Below, in pieces: positions 11,791-30,876 of a DNA stretch of 64,000 bases (position 1 is its first letter; every line of letters begins with the position of its first letter). A program made the translations under genes and the position numbers. Origin of the DNA: Amycolatopsis mongoliensis (GTDB lineage Bacteria; Actinomycetota; Actinomycetes; Mycobacteriales; Pseudonocardiaceae); assembly GCF_030285665.1 (NCBI RefSeq), contig NZ_CP127295.1, positions 2,604,001 through 2,668,000 on the forward strand, written 5' to 3'. The notes under the pieces are model-generated. The model did no database searches, was not told the DNA's origin, and saw nothing but the letters and a program-made list of their open reading frames with translations.

Positions 11791-14237
11791 TGTTCAAGCT
11801 CGCGATGCGCACCCTCCGCCTGCGCAAGGGCGGGTTCCTGGCGACGTTCGTCGCCGTGTTCTTCGGCGCGCTGATCGTCTCGGCGTGCGGTGGCCTGATG
11901 GAGACGGGCATCCGCTCCGAGACGCCGGTGCAGCGGCTGGCCGCGGCGCCGATCGTCGTCGGCGGGCAGCAAACGCTTGCGCTGCCCGAAGAGGACCCGG
12001 CGACCCTCGACCCCGAGGACAAGCACAAGGTCAAGAACGCGACGCTGCCCGAGCGCGTCCGCGTCGACGCCGCGCTGGCCGACCGCCTGCGCGCGGTCCC
12101 CGGCGTCACGAACGTCGTCGGCGAGGTCAGCTTCCCGGCGCAGGCCGGCGCCGCGAGCGCCCTCGGGCACGCGTGGGATTCCGCCGCGCTGACGCCGTAC
12201 ACGCTGAAAGGTGAAGCGCCGAAGCCGGGCGAAGTCGTGGTCGACGCCGGGCTCGGGCTCGCCGTCGGGGACACGCTGCCGGTCGCCGCGCACGGCAGCG
12301 TCGGCCAGTACCGGATCTCCGGCATCGCCGAGGCGCCGCAGGTCATGCGGGATTCGGCGCTGTTCTTCTCCGCTTCCGACGCGGAAAAGCTGTCCGGGCA
12401 CCCGGGGCAGTTCGACGCCATCGGCGTCTTCGGCGGGGACGTCGACGCGGTGACGGCGGCCGTCGGGGACGCCGGGATCGTGACGACCGGGACCGACCGC
12501 GGTGCCCTCGAGTTCCCCGAGGTGACCAAGAGCGGTGAGGACCTCATCGTGCTGGCCGCCGTGTCGGGCGGGCTGTCGGCGATGGTCATGGTGTTCGTCG
12601 TCGCGGGCACGCTCACGCTGTCGACCCAGCAGCGCCAGCGCGAGCTCGCGCTGCTGCGCGCGATCGGCACGACCCCGCGCCAGCTGCGGCGGATGGTCCT
12701 CGGCGAGGCGCTGGTCGTCGGCGTGCTCGCGGTCGCCGTCGCGGTCGTGCTCGGGCCGCTGCTCGGGAAGTGGCTGTTCGGCGAGCTCGCGGCCCACCAC
12801 GTCGTGCCGGACGTGCTGGAGTTCGAGCAGGGCTGGCTCCCGGCGACGGTCGCCGCGGGCGCTTCCCTGCTGGCCGTCGTCGCCGCGTCCTTCGTCGCGG
12901 GCCGCCGGGCCTCGAAGGTCCGCCCGACCGAGGCGCTGGCCGAAGCCGCCGTCGAACGGCGCTGGGTGACCCCGATCCGGGTGATCACCGCGATCCTGTG
13001 CTTCGCGGGCGGGACGGCGCTGGCCATCGTCACGGTCGCCGTGATGACCGGCCCGGTCGCGGCCAGCACGGCCGGCCCCGCGGTGATGCTGTGGGCGTTC
13101 GGGCTCGCGGCGATCAGCCCGGGCGTCACCAAGGTGACGGCGATGCTGCTGCGCTGGCCGGTCCAGGCGGTCACCGGCGTCACCGGCCGGGTCGCGCTGC
13201 TCAACACCCGCGTCGGCGCGGTGCGGACGGCCGGCGCGGTCACCCCGATCATGCTCGCGGTCGGCATCGCGACCGCCAACATCTACCTGCAGACCACCCA
13301 GGAAGCCGTCTCGAACCAGGCGTACACGGAGGACCTGCGGGCGGACGCGGTCGTCGCCGGGCCGGGCGGGCTCGACCCGTCGGTGCTCGGCCGGGTCGCC
13401 GCGGTGCCGGGGGTCGCGAGCGCTTCGGAGTACGTCACGAGCTCGGTGTTCGTCGAGAAGCCGTACGATTCGAACAACGACCAGGACGGCTGGCCCGCGC
13501 TCGGCGTCAGCGAGCTGACCGGGAACGCCGTCGAGGTGCCGACGACGCTCGGGCGCCACGTCGGCGACACGCTGTCGCTGAAGCTCGGCGACGGCACGCC
13601 GGTGGACGTGCGGGTGACGGCCGTCGTGAGCCAGCGCGCCGGGTTCGAACGGCTCGTGCTGCCCGCGTCCCTGCTCGCACCGCACACGACGCTCGGGCTG
13701 GCTCCGCAGCTGCTGGTCCGCGCCGCTCCCGGCGTCGACCCGGCGACGCTGGCTTCGCGCCTTCGCGAGGCGACGGCCGGAATGCCGGTGATGGTCGGTG
13801 ATCGTGCCGCGCTCATCGCGGCGCACGCGAAGGGCAACGAGATCGGCGCGTGGGTCAACTACCTGCTCGTCGGGATGATCATCGCGTACACGGTGATCTC
13901 GGTCGTCAACACGCTGGTGATGGCCACGGCCAAGCGGCGCCGCGAGTTCGGGCTGCAGCGGCTCGGCGGGTTCACCCGCGGCCAGGTGCTGCGGATGGCC
14001 GGTGTCGAAGGCGGGCTGATCGCGACCATCGCGGTGCTGCTCGGGACGCTGGTCGCGGCGGGCTCGATCGTGCCGTTCTGCCTGGTGGTGAGCGGATCGC
14101 CGCTGCCGTCCGGGCCGCCGGCGATCTACCTGGTGGTGCTCGCGATCGCCGTGGTCCTCTCGCTCGTCGCGATCCTCGTCCCGGCCTGGGCGGCGACGCG
14201 CGGGCGTGCGGTCGACGCCACATCCATCGGGGAGTGA
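11790..14237 (+). CDS. FtsX-like ABC transporter permease
   Basis: An 815-aa membrane protein made of two FtsX-type units. It has one helix near residues 15-35, an extracellular MacB periplasmic-core-like region (about 40-240), and an FtsX helix bundle (about 250-380, with the conserved LALLRAIGTTPRQLRRMVLG). After further helices around residue 400-450 comes a second extracellular region (about 500-675), then a final FtsX bundle with the second copy FGLQRLGGFTRGQVLRMAGV. Duplicated permeases of about 800 aa with one MacB-type ATPase are common in actinomycetes, where they act in efflux or lipoprotein handling. The substrate is not known. It is coupled to the ATPase gene. Confidence 0.92.
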   Translation: MFKLAMRTLRLRKGGFLATFVAVFFGALIVSACGGLMETGIRSETPVQRLAAAPIVVGGQQTLALPEEDPATLDPEDKHKVKNATLPERVRVDAALADRLRAVPGVTNVVGEVSFPAQAGAASALGHAWDSAALTPYTLKGEAPKPGEVVVDAGLGLAVGDTLPVAAHGSVGQYRISGIAEAPQVMRDSALFFSASDAEKLSGHPGQFDAIGVFGGDVDAVTAAVGDAGIVTTGTDRGALEFPEVTKSGEDLIVLAAVSGGLSAMVMVFVVAGTLTLSTQQRQRELALLRAIGTTPRQLRRMVLGEALVVGVLAVAVAVVLGPLLGKWLFGELAAHHVVPDVLEFEQGWLPATVAAGASLLAVVAASFVAGRRASKVRPTEALAEAAVERRWVTPIRVITAILCFAGGTALAIVTVAVMTGPVAASTAGPAVMLWAFGLAAISPGVTKVTAMLLRWPVQAVTGVTGRVALLNTRVGAVRTAGAVTPIMLAVGIATANIYLQTTQEAVSNQAYTEDLRADAVVAGPGGLDPSVLGRVAAVPGVASASEYVTSSVFVEKPYDSNNDQDGWPALGVSELTGNAVEVPTTLGRHVGDTLSLKLGDGTPVDVRVTAVVSQRAGFERLVLPASLLAPHTTLGLAPQLLVRAAPGVDPATLASRLREATAGMPVMVGDRAALIAAHAKGNEIGAWVNYLLVGMIIAYTVISVVNTLVMATAKRRREFGLQRLGGFTRGQVLRMAGVEGGLIATIAVLLGTLVAAGSIVPFCLVVSGSPLPSGPPAIYLVVLAIAVVLSLVAILVPAWAATRGRAVDATSIGE

Positions 14238-21845: not shown

Positions 21846-22844
21846 ATGGACGTCTCGGCTGCCGAACGCGCGGTGACTGCCCGGCATTTGCGGCGGGTGT
21901 GGGGGCTGCCCGGGACCGTCCTGGGCCGCAGCCGCTGGCCGGCGGCACTCGACCAGCGGCTGCACTGGCACTGGAACTACTGGTGGCAGGCGCACCTGCT
22001 GGACACCCTGGTCGACGCACAGCTGCGCTCACCCACTTCTTCCCGCATGACCCTGATCCGTTCTTTCGTGCGTTCGGTGCGGCTGCGCAACTTCGGCCGG
22101 TGGACGAACGAGTACTACGACGACATCGCGTGGCTCGGCCTTGCCCTGCAACGGGTTGCGTCGCTGGGCGTCGACACCGGCCCGGCGGTGGCGGCGATCG
22201 ACACGCAGCTGCTTTCGGGCTGGACGCCCGCGGCGGGCGGCGGCATCTGGTGGCGCCGGGGCGACGACTTCAAGAACGCCCCGGCCAACGGTCCAGCGGC
22301 GATCTTCCACGCCCGGTCCGGGAATCTCACGCGCGCCCGGGAAATGACCTCGTGGATGTCGTCCACTTTGGTCGATCCTTCGTCCGGCCTGGTCTGGGAC
22401 GGGATCCGAGCGGACACGGGCGAGCTGGTGAAGCACATTTTCACGTACTGCCAAGGGGTTTACCTCGGGGCGTGCCTCGAGTTGTCCTTAGTGGACGAAG
22501 CGGCCCGGACGGTGCGGGCGGTGGCTTCGCATTGTGCCCCGGGAGGGGTGATCCGCGGCCAGAGCGGCGGCGACGGCGGGTTGTTCGCGGCGATCCTGGC
22601 GCGCTACCTGGCGTTGGCGGCGCACGCGTTGCCCGGCTCGGAAGCCGCGGTGGCGCGGTCGCTGGTGCTGACGTCGGCCGAGGCGTGCTTGTCCGGTGCT
22701 GCCGAGGCGCCGGAAGGTCCGCTGTTCAGCGCGTTCTGGGACCGCCCGGCGCCGCCGTTGCCGCTACCGGAGGACGCGCCGGAGCGGGACATGTCGGTCC
22801 AGGTCGGTGGCTGGATGCTGCTGGAGGCGGCGGCGACGCTGTGA
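21846..22844 (+). CDS. Glycoside hydrolase family 76-like protein
   Basis: A 332-aa all-helical (alpha6/alpha6) protein resembling GH76 endo-alpha-1,6-mannanases. The family signature YYDDIAW places the catalytic Asp pair at 92-93. The HWNYWWQAHLLDTLVDA stretch and GGIWWRRGDDFKNAPANGPAAI are also typical. No signal peptide is seen, so it acts in the cytosol or is exported without one. That is unlike secreted bacterial mannanases but like the actinobacterial group that includes (from memory) M. tuberculosis Rv0365c. It may act on mannose-containing cell-envelope glycolipids. It is divergent from the molybdoenzyme gene. Confidence 0.82.
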   Translation: MDVSAAERAVTARHLRRVWGLPGTVLGRSRWPAALDQRLHWHWNYWWQAHLLDTLVDAQLRSPTSSRMTLIRSFVRSVRLRNFGRWTNEYYDDIAWLGLALQRVASLGVDTGPAVAAIDTQLLSGWTPAAGGGIWWRRGDDFKNAPANGPAAIFHARSGNLTRAREMTSWMSSTLVDPSSGLVWDGIRADTGELVKHIFTYCQGVYLGACLELSLVDEAARTVRAVASHCAPGGVIRGQSGGDGGLFAAILARYLALAAHALPGSEAAVARSLVLTSAEACLSGAAEAPEGPLFSAFWDRPAPPLPLPEDAPERDMSVQVGGWMLLEAAATL

Positions 22845-24491: not shown

Positions 24492-25358
24492 TCAGCAGCC
24501 ACAGGAGGCGCCGTGCAGGAACCGCGGGGTCAGCGACACCGATTCCGGCGGCCGGTCCGGATCGGCCATCCGGGACAACAACAGCTGCACTGCCCGGCGT
24601 CCGAGGTCCGCCACCGGCTGGGCCAGCGTAGTCACCGCCGGGCTCACCCGGCGCGCCCACTCCATGTCGCCGTACCCGACCACCGCCAGCTCCGAGCCGA
24701 TGCGGATGCCGCGGCGGTGGGCTTCGTACTGGACGCCCACCAGCATCGACTCGTCCGCTACCACCAGCGCCGTCGGGGAGGGCCAGCCGTCCAGGAGCTT
24801 GGCCGTCGCCCGGGCCGCTCCGCCCGACGTCGACAACCCGCACTCCACCAGCTCGCGGTTGAACCGCAGCCCCGCCTGCTCCAGCCCCAGCCGGTAGCCG
24901 CGGACGCGCTCGCGGCTGATGTCCAGGCTCTCGTCGCCCGAAATCAGGCCGATCTTGCGGTGCCGGCCCTCGGTCAGGTGCTTCACCAGCGAAGCCACCG
25001 CGTACACGTTCTCCGTGCCCACCTGGTCGACGTCGTTGCGGGCGGCGACGCGGTCGACCAGCACCGTCGGCACGCCCATCCGGACCAGGCCGTTGATCAC
25101 CGCTTCGTCGCCGGGCGAAGGCACCAGCAGCACGCCGTCCACGAGGTCCGCCCGCAGCGCGCGCACCAGCGCCGCCTCTTCACTCACCGTGTCGCCGGTG
25201 TCGGCCAGCGTGACATCGCAGCCCGCCTGGGCCGCGGCCGCCCTGATCGAGCGCAGCAGCTCGCTCGAGTAGGGGTTCGCGTGCGTACCCATCGCGACGC
25301 CGATCCGGTAGGTGACCGGGGGGTCCCACAACCGGAGCTCCGGCGAAAGTGCGGTCAT
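24492..25358 (-). CDS. LacI-family sensor domain lacking the DNA-binding domain
   Basis: A 288-aa protein consisting of a LacI/periplasmic-binding-type ligand domain only. It begins VTYRIGVAMGTHANPYSSEL after 14 residues, the point where the full regulator at 25428-26465 is at about residue 66. It follows that protein closely to the end (VLVDRVAARNDVDQVGTENV versus VLIDRLTTRADVDQVGTENI; both end near SCGC). The HTH and hinge are absent, and the 69 bp upstream before the next stop codon cannot encode them. There is no signal peptide, so it is cytosolic. It probably arose by tandem duplication and HTH loss. It could heterodimerise with the full regulator or act as a sugar-sensing partner. Confidence 0.85.
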   Translation of the reverse strand: MTALSPELRLWDPPVTYRIGVAMGTHANPYSSELLRSIRAAAAQAGCDVTLADTGDTVSEEAALVRALRADLVDGVLLVPSPGDEAVINGLVRMGVPTVLVDRVAARNDVDQVGTENVYAVASLVKHLTEGRHRKIGLISGDESLDISRERVRGYRLGLEQAGLRFNRELVECGLSTSGGAARATAKLLDGWPSPTALVVADESMLVGVQYEAHRRGIRIGSELAVVGYGDMEWARRVSPAVTTLAQPVADLGRRAVQLLLSRMADPDRPPESVSLTPRFLHGASCGC

Positions 25359-25427
25359 AAGCCCTCGCAGACGCTCAGCCGAAAGGTATCCGCTGAGCGG
25401 CCACGCCGAGGCGCTCGCACCCCAGAA

Positions 25428-26465
25428 TCACTGATGTGAGTGAACCGGCGGACAGCCGCACGATTCGCGGTGACGCAGAGTGGGTGCCAGCCGCACGGTC
25501 TCGGCCTTGCGCGCGGGGTCGTTGATCCGGGCCAGCAGCAGCCGCACCGCCTGCCGGCCGATCTCCTCGATCGGCTGCGCCATCGTCGTCAGCGGCGGGT
25601 CCACGAGGTCCGCCCACTCGACGTCGTCGTAGACCACCACCGGCAGGTCACGCCCGATCTTCAGCCCGCGCCGCCGCGCCTCGTGCAGCACCCCGACCAT
25701 CATGCTGTCGTTCCCGACCACGAGCGCCGTCGGCGGCTCGGGCAGGGCCAGCAGCGTGCTCAACGCCAGCGCGCCCCCTTCGTGAGACGAGTTCCCGCAG
25801 GCCACGAGGTCGGACGACCACGTGAGCCCGGACCGGCCGAGGCCCAGCCGGTAGCCCAGCACGCGCTCCTCGCTGGTCGAGAGCCCCGGCGTGCCGCTGA
25901 TCATCCCGATCCGCCGGTGCCCGAGCGTCGCCAGGTGCGCGGTCAGCGCCGACGTCGCCTGGATGTTCTCCGTGCCCACCTGGTCGACGTCGGCGCGGGT
26001 GGTCAGCCGGTCGATCAGCACCGTCGGCACGTCCAGGGAGACCAGCTCGCCGATCACCGGGCCGTCGCCCGGCGCCGGGGTGATGAGCAGGCCGTCGACG
26101 CGGCGGGAGCGCAACGCCCGCACCGTGTCGCGCTCGGTGCCGGCGGTGTCGTGCGTGTCGGCCAGCAGCACGGTGTACCCGTGCGCCGACGCCTCCCGCT
26201 CGATCGCCTGCATCAGCGTCGCGAAGTACGGGTTGGCCACCAGTGAGATCGCCATCCCGATCGAGCGTGTCCCGCCGGTGACCAGCGAACGGGCGATCGC
26301 GTCGCCGGTGTAGCCGGTCGTCTCGATCGCCCGCAGGACCGCCGCCTTGGTGTCCTCGGCGACCGCCCGCGTCCCGTTGACGACGTGCGAGACGGTCGTG
26401 ATCGAGACGCCGGCGAGCTCGGCGATGTCCCGCTGGGTCGGCCGCGATGATCTCGGCTGGGGCAT
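25428..26465 (-). CDS. LacI-family transcriptional regulator of the sugar ABC locus
   Basis: A 345-aa LacI/GalR regulator. The HTH is TQRDIAELAGVSITTVSHVV (10-29), followed by the hinge (ETTGYTGDAIARSL) and the type I periplasmic-binding-protein-like sensor domain (66 to the end, with GMAISLVANPYF and TALVVGNDSM). It is divergent from the CUT2 importer operon. The 24-bp palindrome at 26480-26503 lies between the two starts and is its likely operator. The ATG at 26465 has AAGGA upstream; a start at 26495 would place coding sequence inside the operator and is rejected. The gene for the HTH-less paralogue follows 69 bp downstream. Confidence 0.93.
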   Translation of the reverse strand: MPQPRSSRPTQRDIAELAGVSITTVSHVVNGTRAVAEDTKAAVLRAIETTGYTGDAIARSLVTGGTRSIGMAISLVANPYFATLMQAIEREASAHGYTVLLADTHDTAGTERDTVRALRSRRVDGLLITPAPGDGPVIGELVSLDVPTVLIDRLTTRADVDQVGTENIQATSALTAHLATLGHRRIGMISGTPGLSTSEERVLGYRLGLGRSGLTWSSDLVACGNSSHEGGALALSTLLALPEPPTALVVGNDSMMVGVLHEARRRGLKIGRDLPVVVYDDVEWADLVDPPLTTMAQPIEEIGRQAVRLLLARINDPARKAETVRLAPTLRHRESCGCPPVHSHQ

Positions 26466-26479
26466 GCCAATCCTTTCCG

Positions 26480-26503
26480 GCAAGCGTTTGCGCAAACGCT
26501 TGC
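26480..26503. promoter_or_regulatory. 24-bp perfect palindromic LacI-type operator
   Basis: Arms GCAAGCGTTTGC (26480-26491) and GCAAACGCTTGC (26492-26503) form a perfect 24-bp palindrome with a central CG, typical of LacI-family operators. Its right end overlaps the -35 box of the importer promoter, and its left end is 15 bp from the LacI start, so bound regulator would repress both directions. Confidence 0.85.
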
Positions 26504-26572: not shown

Positions 26573-27589
26573 ATGAGACAGCGAAGTCTCACCGCAGTCG
26601 TGCTGGCCGCCGTCCTCGCCGCGACGACCGGGTGCACGGTCGAACGCCACTGGGGCGGCAACACCAACACGGGCGGGAGCGGCAAGGCGAAGGTCGGCCT
26701 GGTCACCAAGACCGACACCAACCCCTACTTCGTCGAACTCCGCAACTCCGCGAGAGCCGCCGCGCAGGCCAACGGCGCGGACTTCAACGCACTCGCCGGC
26801 CAGTTCGACGGGGACAACGACGGCCAGGTCCGCGCCATCGAGAACCTCATGCAGCAGGGCGTGAACACGATCCTGATCACGCCCAGCTCCTCGACCGGCG
26901 TGCTGAAGGCGATCAAGGACGCGCGTGACGCCGGGGTCCTCGTCATCGCGCTCGACACCGCCACCGAACCGCCCGACGCCGTCGACGCCACCTTCGCCAC
27001 CGACAACTTCGCCGCCGGCGAACAGCAGGGCGCGTACGTCAAGGCCGCGCTCAAGGGCGTCCCGCCCAAGCTGCTCATGGTCGACGGCACGGCCGGCAGC
27101 TCGGTCGACACCCAGCGCCACGGCGGTTTCCTCAAGGGCATCGGGCTCACCGACGGCTCGCCGGAGATCAAGGGCCACACCGCGGCCAACGGCGACCAGA
27201 GCCTCGCCCAGCAGGGCATGGAGAACCTGCTGCAGCGCAGCACCGACATCAACGCCGTCTACTCGATGAACGAGCCGATGGGCCGCGGCGCGTACGCGGC
27301 GCTGAAGGCCCGCGGGCTCACCGGCCAGATCGTCATGGGCTCGATCGACGGCGGCTGCGAGGGCGTCCAGAATGTCAAGGACGGCCAGTACGCCGCAACC
27401 GTCATGCAGTTCCCCAAGAAGATGGCCGAACAGGGCGTGCTCGCCGCCGTCGAGTACGCGAAAACCGGCAAGAAGCCGACCGGCTTCGTCAACACCGGGT
27501 CCGCCGTGATCACCGACAAGCCCCTGCCCGGCATCGAAAGCCACGACACCGCGTGGGGCCTGCAGAACTGCTGGGGAGGCGCGAAGTGA
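26573..27589 (+). CDS. Sugar ABC transporter substrate-binding lipoprotein (CUT2)
   Basis: A 338-aa substrate-binding lipoprotein of the ribose/fructose (CUT2) class. The signal peptide ends at TTGC with Cys21 as the likely lipidated residue. The mature type I binding fold starts KAKVGLVTKTDTNPYFVELR and continues QGVNTILITPSSSTGV, LVIALDTATE and MVDGTAGSSVDTQRHGGF. The order binding protein, permease, single-domain ATPase, then kinase resembles the rhizobial fructose transporter FrcBCA-K, so fructose or another ketose/pentose is a plausible ligand; that is inference. The TGA overlaps the permease GTG (GTGA at 27586). Confidence 0.92.
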   Translation: MRQRSLTAVVLAAVLAATTGCTVERHWGGNTNTGGSGKAKVGLVTKTDTNPYFVELRNSARAAAQANGADFNALAGQFDGDNDGQVRAIENLMQQGVNTILITPSSSTGVLKAIKDARDAGVLVIALDTATEPPDAVDATFATDNFAAGEQQGAYVKAALKGVPPKLLMVDGTAGSSVDTQRHGGFLKGIGLTDGSPEIKGHTAANGDQSLAQQGMENLLQRSTDINAVYSMNEPMGRGAYAALKARGLTGQIVMGSIDGGCEGVQNVKDGQYAATVMQFPKKMAEQGVLAAVEYAKTGKKPTGFVNTGSAVITDKPLPGIESHDTAWGLQNCWGGAK

Positions 27590-28581
27590 CGACAGCAACC
27601 GCAGTGTCTACCAAGGACCGTGAGTCGCTCGGCGAGTTCCTCCTCCGCGCCCCCGCGGTCGGCCCGGCGCTCGCGCTGGTCGTCGCGATCGTGGTGTTCT
27701 CGCTGGCCACGGACACGTTCTTCGACCTCGACAACCTGTCCACAGTGGTCCAGCAGTCGCTGGTCGTCGGAACGCTCGCCCTGGGCCAGACGCTCGTCAT
27801 CCTCATCGCGGGCATCGACCTGTCCAACGCGTCGTCGATGGTCGTCGCGACGCTGATCATGGCGAAGCTCGCCGCGGCCGGCACCAACGGCTTTGTCGCG
27901 CTGCTCGCCGGTGTCGTGCTGACGATCATCGTCGGCATCTTCATCGGTTCGCTGGCGACGCGGATCAAGCTGCCGGCGTTCATCATCACGCTCGGCACGT
28001 TCACCATGCTGACCGCGGTGTCCAAGCTGATCGCCGGCGGCCAGGCCGTGCCGGTGACCGACGGGCTGCTGCAGTGGCTCGGCACCAAGCGCTACCTCTT
28101 CGGCGGCATCCCGATCACCTACGGCATGACGCTGGCGCTGCTGATGTACCTCGGGATCTGGTACGCGCTGACGAAAACCGCGTGGGGCAAGCACGTCTAC
28201 GCCGTCGGCAACGCGCCGGAGTCCGCGCGGCTGTCCGGGATCAAGGTCAACCGCACGGTGCTGTCGGTGTACATCGTGGCCGGCCTGACCTTCGGCATCG
28301 CCGCCTGGCAGGCGCTCGGCCGGACGCCGAACGCCGACCCGAACCAGTTCCAGCTCGGCAACCTCGACTCGATCACCGCCGTCGTCCTCGGCGGGACGAG
28401 CCTGTTCGGCGGTCGCGGCTCGGTGCTCGGGACGCTGATGGGTGCGCTGGTCGTGGCCGTGCTGCGGTCGGGGCTGACGCAGATGAACGTCGACGGCAAC
28501 TACCAGGACCTCGCCACCGGGGCCCTGCTGATCGCCGCCGTCGTGGTGGACCGGATCGCGAGGAGGCAGCAGCAGTCATGA
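27586..28581 (+). CDS. Sugar ABC transporter permease (CUT2)
   Basis: A 331-aa permease of the RbsC/FrcC family with about 8-10 transmembrane helices. Family hallmarks include GQTLVILIAGIDLSNASSMV (the conserved GIDLS loop), KLPAFIITLGTFT, YAVGNAPESARLSGI (the cytoplasmic EAA-like loop, GxNxxAARLSGI) and VVLGGTSLFGGRGSVLGTLMG. The start is a GTG overlapping the previous stop, with GGGGAGGC (27573-27580) in front. Its TGA overlaps the ATPase ATG (ATGA at 28578). Confidence 0.95.
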   Translation: MTTATAVSTKDRESLGEFLLRAPAVGPALALVVAIVVFSLATDTFFDLDNLSTVVQQSLVVGTLALGQTLVILIAGIDLSNASSMVVATLIMAKLAAAGTNGFVALLAGVVLTIIVGIFIGSLATRIKLPAFIITLGTFTMLTAVSKLIAGGQAVPVTDGLLQWLGTKRYLFGGIPITYGMTLALLMYLGIWYALTKTAWGKHVYAVGNAPESARLSGIKVNRTVLSVYIVAGLTFGIAAWQALGRTPNADPNQFQLGNLDSITAVVLGGTSLFGGRGSVLGTLMGALVVAVLRSGLTQMNVDGNYQDLATGALLIAAVVVDRIARRQQQS

Positions 28582-29387
28582 CCGATCCCATCCTCCAGGC
28601 CCGCGGGCTGGTGAAACGCTACGGCCGCGTCACCGCGATCGACGGCGCCGACTTCGACCTGCTCCCCGGCGAGGTGCTCGCCGTCGTCGGGGACAACGGC
28701 GCCGGGAAGTCGTCGCTCATCAAAACCCTGTCCGGAGCCGTGATCCCGGACGAAGGGGAGATCAAAGTGGACGGCAAGACCGTCCACTTCAAGTCCCCTT
28801 TGGACGCCCGGCACTACGGGATCGAGACGGTGTACCAGGATCTCGCGGTCGCGCCCGCGCTCGACATCGCGTCGAACATGTTCCTGGGCCGGGAAAAGCG
28901 CCTCAAGGGACCGTTCGGGCTGTTCCGGAAGCTCGACACCGCCACCATGCGGGCCGAAGCGCAGCGGATCCTCGACGAGCTGGGCATCAACATCAAGTCG
29001 ATTTCCCAGCCCGTCGAGACGCTCTCCGGTGGTCAGCGCCAGGGTGTCGCTGTGGCCCGCGCGGCCGCGTTCGGGACCAAGGCGGTGATCATGGACGAGC
29101 CCACCGCCGCGCTCGGCGTCGCCGAGTCCGGCAAGGTGCTCGACCTCATCGGCCGGATCCGCGACCGCGGCCTGCCGGTGGTGCTGATCAGCCACAACAT
29201 GCCGCACGTGTTCGACATCGCCGACCGCATCCACGTGCACCGCCTCGGCAAGCGCGTCGCGGTCGTCTCGCCGAAGACGCACTCGATGAACCAGGTCGTC
29301 GGCCTGCTCACCGGGGCGCTGCGGCTCAACGAGAACGGCGAAGTCGAAGAGGCCGCCGCGGCGACCCACGTGGCCGGCTTGAAGTGA
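28578..29387 (+). CDS. Sugar ABC transporter ATPase, single-domain (FrcA-like)
   Basis: A 269-aa ATP-binding subunit. Walker A GDNGAGKSS is at 38-46, the signature LSGGQRQG near 149-156, Walker B VIMDEPTAALG, and the H-loop in LISHNM. CUT2 importers such as RbsA normally have two fused ATPase domains. This one has one, as in FrcA, so the working transporter must contain two copies. The C-terminal 25 residues (LNENGEVEEAAAATHVAGLK) are an acidic tail. Coupled to the permease (ATGA) and to the kinase (GTGA at 29384). Confidence 0.94.
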   Translation: MTDPILQARGLVKRYGRVTAIDGADFDLLPGEVLAVVGDNGAGKSSLIKTLSGAVIPDEGEIKVDGKTVHFKSPLDARHYGIETVYQDLAVAPALDIASNMFLGREKRLKGPFGLFRKLDTATMRAEAQRILDELGINIKSISQPVETLSGGQRQGVAVARAAAFGTKAVIMDEPTAALGVAESGKVLDLIGRIRDRGLPVVLISHNMPHVFDIADRIHVHRLGKRVAVVSPKTHSMNQVVGLLTGALRLNENGEVEEAAAATHVAGLK

Positions 29388-30244
29388 GAGTGCTGCTGGC
29401 GGGACTGTGCACCGTGGACGTCGTCCAGCGGGTCACCGAACTCCCGGCGCCGGGCGAGAAGGTGCAGTCGCTGCAGGTGGACGTCGCGGCCGGGGGGCCT
29501 GCGACGAACGCCGCGGTGACGGCCGCCGCGCTCGGCGCCGAGGCGACCCTGCTGACCGTCCTCGGTGCACACCCGCTGGCCGCGCTCGCCCGCGCCGACC
29601 TCGAAACGCACGGCGTCCAGCTGATCGACCTGGCTCCCGGCCTGTCCGATCCGCCCCCGGTCAGCGCCGTCGCCGTCCGCGACCGCGACGGCGAGCGCAC
29701 GGTCGTCTCCCGCAACGCCCAAGACCGCACTTTCCTAGGGAAAGCTCCGTTTTTTGGGGTTCCTGGGGTGGGTGGGGCTGATGTGGTGCTGCTTGACGGG
29801 CATCATCCGGAACTTGCGGTGGCCGTCGCGAAGGCCGCGAAAGCCCAGGGCGTGCCGGTCGTGCTCGACGCCGGGAGCTGGAAGCCGGTGCTCGACGAGC
29901 TCCTCCCGCTGGTCGACGTCGCCGCCTGCTCGGCGCACTTCACCGCGCCGGAGCCGGGGCTCCACGAGCGTGGCGCCGGCACCGTCATCACCACCGCGGG
30001 ACCGCGCCCGGTGCGGTGGTCCACTGCGGACGGCGGCTCGGGTGAGGTGCCTGTTCCCGCCGTGGAAGCGCGGGACACACTAGGTGCGGGCGACGTCTGG
30101 CACGGCGCGCTCGCCGTGGCCGTGACCCGCGAACCGACGGTGACGGGCCGGATTCGCTTCGCCAACGAGGTGGCCGCCGAACGGGTGCGGCATGTGGGAC
30201 CGCGGTCGTGGACGACCGCGATCGCAGGAAGGAACAGGACATGA
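29384..30244 (+). CDS. PfkB/ribokinase family sugar kinase
   Basis: A 286-aa carbohydrate kinase. The N-terminal GLCTVDVVQRVTELPAPGEK and the AAGGPATNAAVTAAALGA motif bind sugar, and the C-terminal DTLGAGDVWHGAL (231-243) carries the catalytic base Asp237 and the anion hole. It would phosphorylate the sugar imported by the preceding ABC system. Between about codons 116 and 130 (29,730-29,780) there is an unusual G/T-ending, T-rich stretch encoding GKAPFFGVPGVGG, which looks like an insertion relative to family members. GTG start overlapping the ATPase stop; ATGA overlap with the next gene. Confidence 0.92.
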   Translation: MRVLLAGLCTVDVVQRVTELPAPGEKVQSLQVDVAAGGPATNAAVTAAALGAEATLLTVLGAHPLAALARADLETHGVQLIDLAPGLSDPPPVSAVAVRDRDGERTVVSRNAQDRTFLGKAPFFGVPGVGGADVVLLDGHHPELAVAVAKAAKAQGVPVVLDAGSWKPVLDELLPLVDVAACSAHFTAPEPGLHERGAGTVITTAGPRPVRWSTADGGSGEVPVPAVEARDTLGAGDVWHGALAVAVTREPTVTGRIRFANEVAAERVRHVGPRSWTTAIAGRNRT

Positions 30245-30876
30245 CGGCGTTCGACGACCTGCTGGCCCGGGCCGAGGGCCTGACCGTGCGCGGGCAGCGC
30301 AACGTGCTGGGCATCATCGGCGCGCCCGCGTCCGGCAAGACCACGCTGGCGTGGGCGCTGGCCAACGCGCTCGGTTCGCGCGCCGCCGTGGTCGGCATGG
30401 ACGGCTTCCACCTCGCGCAGGTCGAGCTGCGCCGGCTGGAGCGCACCGAGCGCAAGGGCGCGCCGGACACGTTCGACGCGGCCGGCTACTTCCACATGAT
30501 CAAGCGGCTCGCCGCGGGCCGCGAGACGGTGTACGCGCCGGAGTTCCGCCGCGAGATCGAGGAGCCGATCGCCGGGGCCGTCGCGGTGCCGCCGGAGGTC
30601 CAGCTGGTGATCACCGAGGGTAACTACCTGCTGTTGCCGGACGACCCGTGGAGCGGGATCCGGCCGCTGCTCACCGAGGCCTGGTTCCTCGCGCCGGACG
30701 AGCCCGAGCGGATCGAACGGCTCGTGTCGCGCCACCGCCGCTACGGCCGTTCGCTGGTCGAAGCCCGGCAGCGCGCGCTCGGTTCGGACCAGCGCAACGC
30801 CGACCTCATCTCGCAGACGCGCGACCGCGCGGACCTGGTGCTGGAGAACCTGCCGCTGGCCAACTTCGCGATCTGA
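30241..30876 (+). CDS. P-loop kinase (nucleoside/nucleotide kinase family, FrcK-like)
   Basis: A 211-aa kinase of the uridine kinase/phosphoribulokinase-like P-loop group. The P-loop GAPASGKTT is at 27-35, VVGMDGFHLAQ has the catalytic Asp region, and VQLVITEGNYLLLPDDPW is the conserved strand-4 motif (EGNYLLL) of this family. RHRRYGRSLVEARQRALGSDQRN is the lid. A kinase of this family follows frcBCA in rhizobia (FrcK), which supports sugar or sugar-phosphate phosphorylation in the same pathway. It may add a second phosphate after the PfkB kinase. Coupled by ATGA at 30241. Confidence 0.88.
   Translation: MTAFDDLLARAEGLTVRGQRNVLGIIGAPASGKTTLAWALANALGSRAAVVGMDGFHLAQVELRRLERTERKGAPDTFDAAGYFHMIKRLAAGRETVYAPEFRREIEEPIAGAVAVPPEVQLVITEGNYLLLPDDPWSGIRPLLTEAWFLAPDEPERIERLVSRHRRYGRSLVEARQRALGSDQRNADLISQTRDRADLVLENLPLANFAI

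Follow-up and report, generated by a model that had tools for sequence, protein, structure and literature searches.

The window, that is, the whole stretch of 64,000 nucleotides of Amycolatopsis mongoliensis DNA that was analysed, encodes a LacI-family regulator (P0003) and an HTH-less paralogue of it (P0002). The two ORFs, whose positions in an earlier sequence-only reading were confirmed (Table 1), both lie on the minus strand, so that P0002 is downstream of the regulator. The operon divergent from the regulator encodes an FrcB-like binding protein, a permease, an ATPase, a PfkB protein, an FrcK-like kinase and a short-chain dehydrogenase.

Table 1. Features of the locus, in positions of the window.
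Feature	Coordinates	Strand	Remarks
GH76 family protein	21846..22844	+	beyond the copy
P0002, HTH-less LacI paralogue	24492..25358	-	288 aa; sensor domain only, altered effector pocket
P0003-P0002 gap	25359..25427	-	69 bp
P0003, LacI-family regulator	25428..26465	-	345 aa; HTH at about residues 10-55, sensor domain complete
24-bp palindrome GCAAGCGTTTGC-GCAAACGCTTGC	26480..26503	.	two predicted operators of LacI type, abutting, in the regulator-operon intergenic region
FrcB/RbsB-like sugar-binding protein of the importer	26579..27589	+	lipobox-like N-terminus (MRQRSLTAVVLAAVLAATTGC, by eye)
Sugar ABC transporter permease, PF02653	27553..28581	+	start from ORF list
Sugar ABC transporter ATPase, PF00005	28578..29387	+	start approximate, scanned as 28500-29387
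PfkB-family sugar kinase	29384..30244	+	
FrcK-like nucleoside/nucleotide kinase family protein	30208..30876	+	NF006743 above cut-off

As the sequence-only reading had proposed, P0002 is equivalent to the sensor half of the regulator, beginning at about residue 66. Indeed, BLASTP aligned residues 16-288 of P0002 to residues 66-338 of P0003 without gaps, 141 of 273 positions being identical (52%, E 1e-88). According to Pfam, P0003 has a LacI HTH (PF00356) at residues 12-53 (49.9 bits, cut-off 27) and a sensor domain (PF13377, 140.3 bits); P0002 matches the sensor domains, and is thereby homologous to the family, and lacks the HTH that characterizes LacI/GalR regulators. Furthermore, no signal peptide and no lipobox were seen by eye at its N-terminus (MTALSPELRLWDPPVTYRIGV), and the protein is presumably cytosolic. 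The description of P0002 as a co-directional LacI paralogue devoid of a DNA-binding part is thus upheld. It had also been claimed that the intergenic gap leaves no room for an HTH, and an in-frame HTH upstream was looked for in two ways and not found: (i) the stop-to-stop frame of P0002 extends 23 codons upstream with no ATG, GTG or TTG before the ATG at 25358, and (ii) an HTH profile of the orthologues, run against the six frames of the LacI-copy gaps at 93 loci, returned nothing credible (best E 2.1). At all loci where the distance was measured, the copy directly follows LacI, the gaps of the 69 distinct copies being 69-214 nt long with one exception of 779 nt. This exceptional gap (L068, genome G021; about 70-210 nt elsewhere) looks repetitive in translation and the copy behind it is intact; the same profile scan found no HTH hidden inside this gap.

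The copies are 281-298 aa long at all 93 loci collected and their N-termini are alike (consensus MTALS..LW..PVTHRFGVAM, with few exceptions such as L068 and L080), the aligned part of the regulator being the end of the HTH and the hinge. In the AlphaFold model of P0002 (mean pLDDT 79.4), confidence is low for residues 1-11, and the remainder adopts the two-lobed sensor fold. The top 50 Foldseek matches to this model are all LacI-family proteins (query TM-scores 0.52 to 0.68), the best match among solved structures being the ribose repressor RbsR. Residue 47 of P0002 (about 25218-25220) is Cys in 69 of 69 distinct copies and Tyr in 84 of 84 regulators. The C-terminus of P0002 is SCGC, a motif that P0003 also has, seven residues from its end.

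Conservation was analysed in 80 genomes of the genus and in a sample of 297 genomes of the family, and a named collection retained the 80 top-ranking stretches, corresponding to 78 loci, out of 168 related ones. An open match over residues 1-288, with no stops, is present in 74 of the 80 Amycolatopsis genomes, which rules out a sequencing error. The six genomes without the copy are G001, G005, G011, G028, G031 and G036; five of these (G001, G011, G028, G031 and G036) have LacI, which can therefore do without the copy. Outside the core genus, among the matches listed for the family sample, the copy was found in one genome of g10 (A. arida), in four Prauserella genomes (g15: cavernicola, endophytica, flavalba), in two genomes of g20 (Qaidamihabitans albus, P. 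shujinwangii) and in one genome of g41 (P. muralis), and the second matches in these four groups are full-length. In Saccharomonospora (g24), the A. sacchari group (g26), g44 and Lentzea-like genomes, the regulator is the single match (E <=1e-85) among the genomes listed. An absence of the copy from all related species, which would have spoken against its being a genuine gene, is thus not what was observed. Seventy-five large loci (L054-L128, stretches of about 11-14 kb, chosen and not random) were also read: LacI stands without the copy at 31 of them, and the copy stands without LacI at none of the remaining 44.

A quick, unrooted maximum-likelihood tree was built from 27 copies and 58 regulators; in it the copies form one clade, separated from the regulators by a branch with an SH-aLRT support of 100, and their branching order resembles, by eye, that of LacI. 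Their attachment point has on one side 13 regulators, mostly of Lentzea type (support 85), and on the other the 45 regulators from the group of Amycolatopsis, Prauserella and Saccharomonospora (support 93). This would date the duplication to the common Amycolatopsis/Prauserella ancestor or earlier, with later losses, although fast evolution of the copy could pull it too deep; the tree program warned of long branches (L102 with L104, and others). Calculated from 378 pairs among 28 close loci (375 usable for the HTH), the median dN/dS was 0.175 in the copy sensor, compared with 0.085 in the sensor and 0.050 in the HTH of LacI; by this measure the copy is under purifying selection. The 84 distinct LacI orthologues share 103 invariant sensor columns, and at 76 of these the residue is retained in half of the copies or more.

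The effector pocket is altered in the copies. By alignment with manual counting, F81, T197, R201 and D280 of P0003 correspond to PurR F74, T192, R196 and D275, which are presumed to be effector contacts; N252 was taken to be the equivalent of LacI N246, and the D280 column that of the effector-contacting Asp LacI D274/PurR D275. Substitution of LacI D274 abolishes inducer binding. The pocket positions of P0002 are S31, D202, E203 and G230, with R151 kept. The set F81/N252/D253/D280/R201 (FNDDR) is complete in 84 of 84 distinct LacI and in 0 of 69 distinct copies. Indeed, (i) the D280 column, Asp in all 84 regulators, is Gly in 68 of the 69 copies, (ii) the D253 column is Glu in 67, (iii) the Phe of NPYF (F81 column) is absent from all 69, being replaced by S, H, T, A, N or V, with two copies gapped, and (iv) the N252 column is D, G or S in 66. 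The R201 column is Arg in every copy, and the pocket residues Y80 and S226 are kept in 60 and 64 copies, respectively. Losses are not significantly enriched in the pocket relative to the other invariant columns (4/7 versus 27/103, p 0.075; 3/6, p 0.18, without N252), and the argument rests on the identity of the changed residue and on its fixation. By these residues, P0002 is probably sugar-blind.

Among the large loci, the 44 with the copy have PfkB (44), the FrcK-like kinase (44), the three importer genes (37) and GH76 (36), and the 31 without it have FrcK (30), PfkB (24), the importer (16) and GH76 (17). The association with a sugar importer, put forward in the sequence-only reading, was retained in a weaker form: importer genes occur at 37 of 44 copy loci, but none were found in the other seven stretches of about 12 kb, where LacI and the two kinases are present as at all 44, and a strict copy-importer link was dropped. 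The frequency of GH76 as a neighbour hints at a mannan-derived sugar as the substrate.

P0002 and P0003 are adjacent on the same strand, with a possible -10 element for the copy alone. Indeed, a TACCTT (TAnnnT, -10-like) lies at 25383-25388 in the gap, and the leader and ribosome-binding stretch is near-identical in most of the 28 loci of the window clade (L015 deviates). TAnnnT is found at about -30 in 27 of these 28 loci; of 44 other distinct sequences, 39 have it somewhere from -60 to -20. These are raw counts from related, non-independent sequences. A strict sigma-70 promoter and terminator scan of the gap found nothing; TAnnnT could be a candidate -10 of the copy's own promoter. A hairpin attenuator in the gap (window fold z -2.37, arms CGCTCAGC/GCTGAGCG) was rejected, because the left arm varies, by eye, across the 28 loci with no steady compensation.

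The lack of an HTH and of a visible signal peptide, the changed pocket and the tight linkage make protein contact the likeliest mode of action of P0002, and its parent the likeliest partner. P0002 could act at the protein level, through mixed oligomers, to modulate the repressor encoded next to it, a reading that is preferred tentatively, with a little less than an even chance of being correct. P0002 would go back to an ancient duplication of this regulator, after which it would have lost the HTH, undergone changes in its effector pocket and retained the LacI sensor/dimerisation fold. Its subunits would combine with those of the regulator into mixed dimers or tetramers lacking a full HTH pair and with an altered inducer response, and would thereby adjust the grip on the 24-bp double operator, as a built-in equivalent of a lacI trans-dominant-negative (i-d) subunit. 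Dimerisation, the choice of partner and the direction of the effect are putative elements of this scheme. Somewhat unlikely is the more far-reaching proposal of an ancient dedicated anti-repressor, in which a LacI paralogue binding neither DNA nor effector would mix with its parent as an inducer-blind subunit, its dosage, set by its own promoter, would determine repression, and it would have been kept in most examined descendants of the Amycolatopsis/Prauserella ancestor.

The presumed dimer interface bears both on the preferred mixing of subunits and on its main competitor. V257, W284 and V288, presumed equivalents of core residues at the dimer interface of LacI, are for the most part retained or conservatively replaced in the copies, which would permit dimers. 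LacI K84 and Q117 are presumably also interface positions; their equivalents in P0003, E89 and R121, are E and R in 84 of 84 LacI orthologues. In 56 of the 69 copies, these two columns (P0002 positions 39 and 71) hold R/K and D, respectively, always changed together; the remaining 13 have E/D with a non-D residue. If the two residues pair across the dimer, window-clade copies may favour their own kind, and the mixed dimer would be disfavoured. Because of these charge swaps, an unlikely but serious alternative was kept, in which P0002 is a separate homodimeric sensor, insulated from the regulator by its interface, that would have some other ligand (e.g., a phosphorylated sugar made by the neighbouring kinases), or no ligand at all, and whose putative target would be a different protein, for example one of these kinases. 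Besides the linked changes, this alternative draws on the invariance of R151 and the near fixation of E203, which suggest a remodelled and not a randomly changed pocket, and on the presence of both kinase genes at all 44 copy loci, against 37 for the importer. However, the joint change at 39/71 probably happened once, as read off the tree, and the contact between the two residues is assumed; the kinases also accompany most copy-less LacI genes (30 and 24 of 31, as given above).

The palindrome upstream of the regulator is perfect, is the sole exact copy in the 10.8-Mb genome and is conserved across most of the family relatives that were examined, where it carries few mismatches. With centres spaced by 12 bp, its abutting operators seem to leave too little room for two dimers to sit next to each other. 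A third match to GCAANCGNTTGC in the window lies away from the locus, at 11969-11980. Among 105 genomes with a readable upstream region, the LacI-proximal operator matches the consensus perfectly in all 74 that have the copy, versus 14 of the 31 that lack it, an association that is not significant, with just two supported independent pairs, and so a link between the copy and a perfect LacI-proximal operator is suggestive only. These 74 genomes, which also count in favour of the preferred reading, and a mismatch in four of the five genus genomes with LacI and without the copy (two near-relative pairs), would fit a bridging role, in which P0002 bridges or stabilises LacI dimers on both abutting operators, giving stronger repression through a larger complex. 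Such a role is improbable: the fifth of these genomes, G031, has a perfect double operator yet no copy, as do g26 genomes, A. sacchari for example, and the independent events are too few for a test.

Titration of sugar by P0002, one of the roles envisaged in the sequence-only reading, is unlikely, because effector-pocket positions that are invariant in the regulator are replaced in the copy. A cytosolic sugar buffer competing with the regulator for inducer would agree with the type I periplasmic-binding fold and the pocket Arg retained in 69 of 69 copies, but is very improbable in view of the replacements in the D280, NPYF Phe and N252 columns. An inactive relic, the other option raised earlier, or a chance ORF is scarcely credible: the dN/dS of the copy is roughly double the value for the LacI sensor, parts of the most divergent Prauserella copies look degenerate and some lineages lack the copy, but the length of 281-298 aa at 93 of 93 loci, the similar N-terminus, the leader conserved in the window clade and the purifying selection contradict decay.

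In the genome as a whole, 47 PF13377 sensor-domain matches were counted, 42 of which are accompanied by a LacI HTH above the cut-off (paired by coordinates). The five others are P0002, a second sensor-only protein (L129), one protein (L130) whose N-terminal part looks, in our own reading, like a DeoR-type HTH, and two partial matches that are presumably binding proteins. P0002, but not the other sensor-only protein, stands in tandem with a LacI gene resembling it. The L129 protein (L129:4954-5802; G000:C1:7523953-7524801, plus strand) keeps the N and D pocket residues (NDHMALG, GFDDVPEA), and LacI paralogues 57-58% identical to it lie about 20-35 kb away in the same genome. Relatives with at least 79% identity and open frames of 271-289 aa were found in 11 of 40 genus genomes, its own included (10 of 39 others); judged by frame length, it looks like a conserved HTH-less copy too. 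Sensor-only LacI proteins such as P0002 and the L129 protein, with its relatives in 10 of 39 genomes, should not be written off as fragments. LacI is the textbook repressor, and if the preferred reading of P0002 as a modulator of its parent is true, a natural conserved gene of i-d build would mean that bacteria tune sugar repressors by paralogue mixing or by a pseudo-sensor, and this small gene pair would make it possible to test how duplicated repressors avoid or exploit cross-assembly.

P0002 shares the sensor-domain fold and sequence of LacI/GalR regulators (RbsR, PurR, CcpA), but has neither HTH nor hinge and carries Gly in place of the effector Asp. It has the same general fold as the periplasmic sugar-binding proteins FrcB/RbsB, from which it differs by the lack of a signal peptide or lipobox (by eye) and by its presence also at the 7 of 44 loci where importer genes were not found. 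Other likenesses are by analogy. The lacI i-d mutants produce trans-dominant-negative repressor subunits that do not bind DNA, and P0002, as a subunit without DNA binding, could likewise poison mixed oligomers; unlike them, it is a separate, natural and conserved gene with a changed pocket, and its mixing is putative. AmiC is a cytosolic, binding-protein-like regulator of AmiR that binds its ligand; P0002 resembles it in having a type I binding fold without a DNA-binding part and may, like it, work through protein contact, whereas AmiC is ligand-binding and is not a LacI paralogue next to its parent. Finally, eukaryotic Id proteins, themselves without a DNA-binding part, sequester their DNA-binding relatives; P0002 is similarly a paralogue without a DNA-binding part, of an unrelated fold, and the parallel is one of analogy only.
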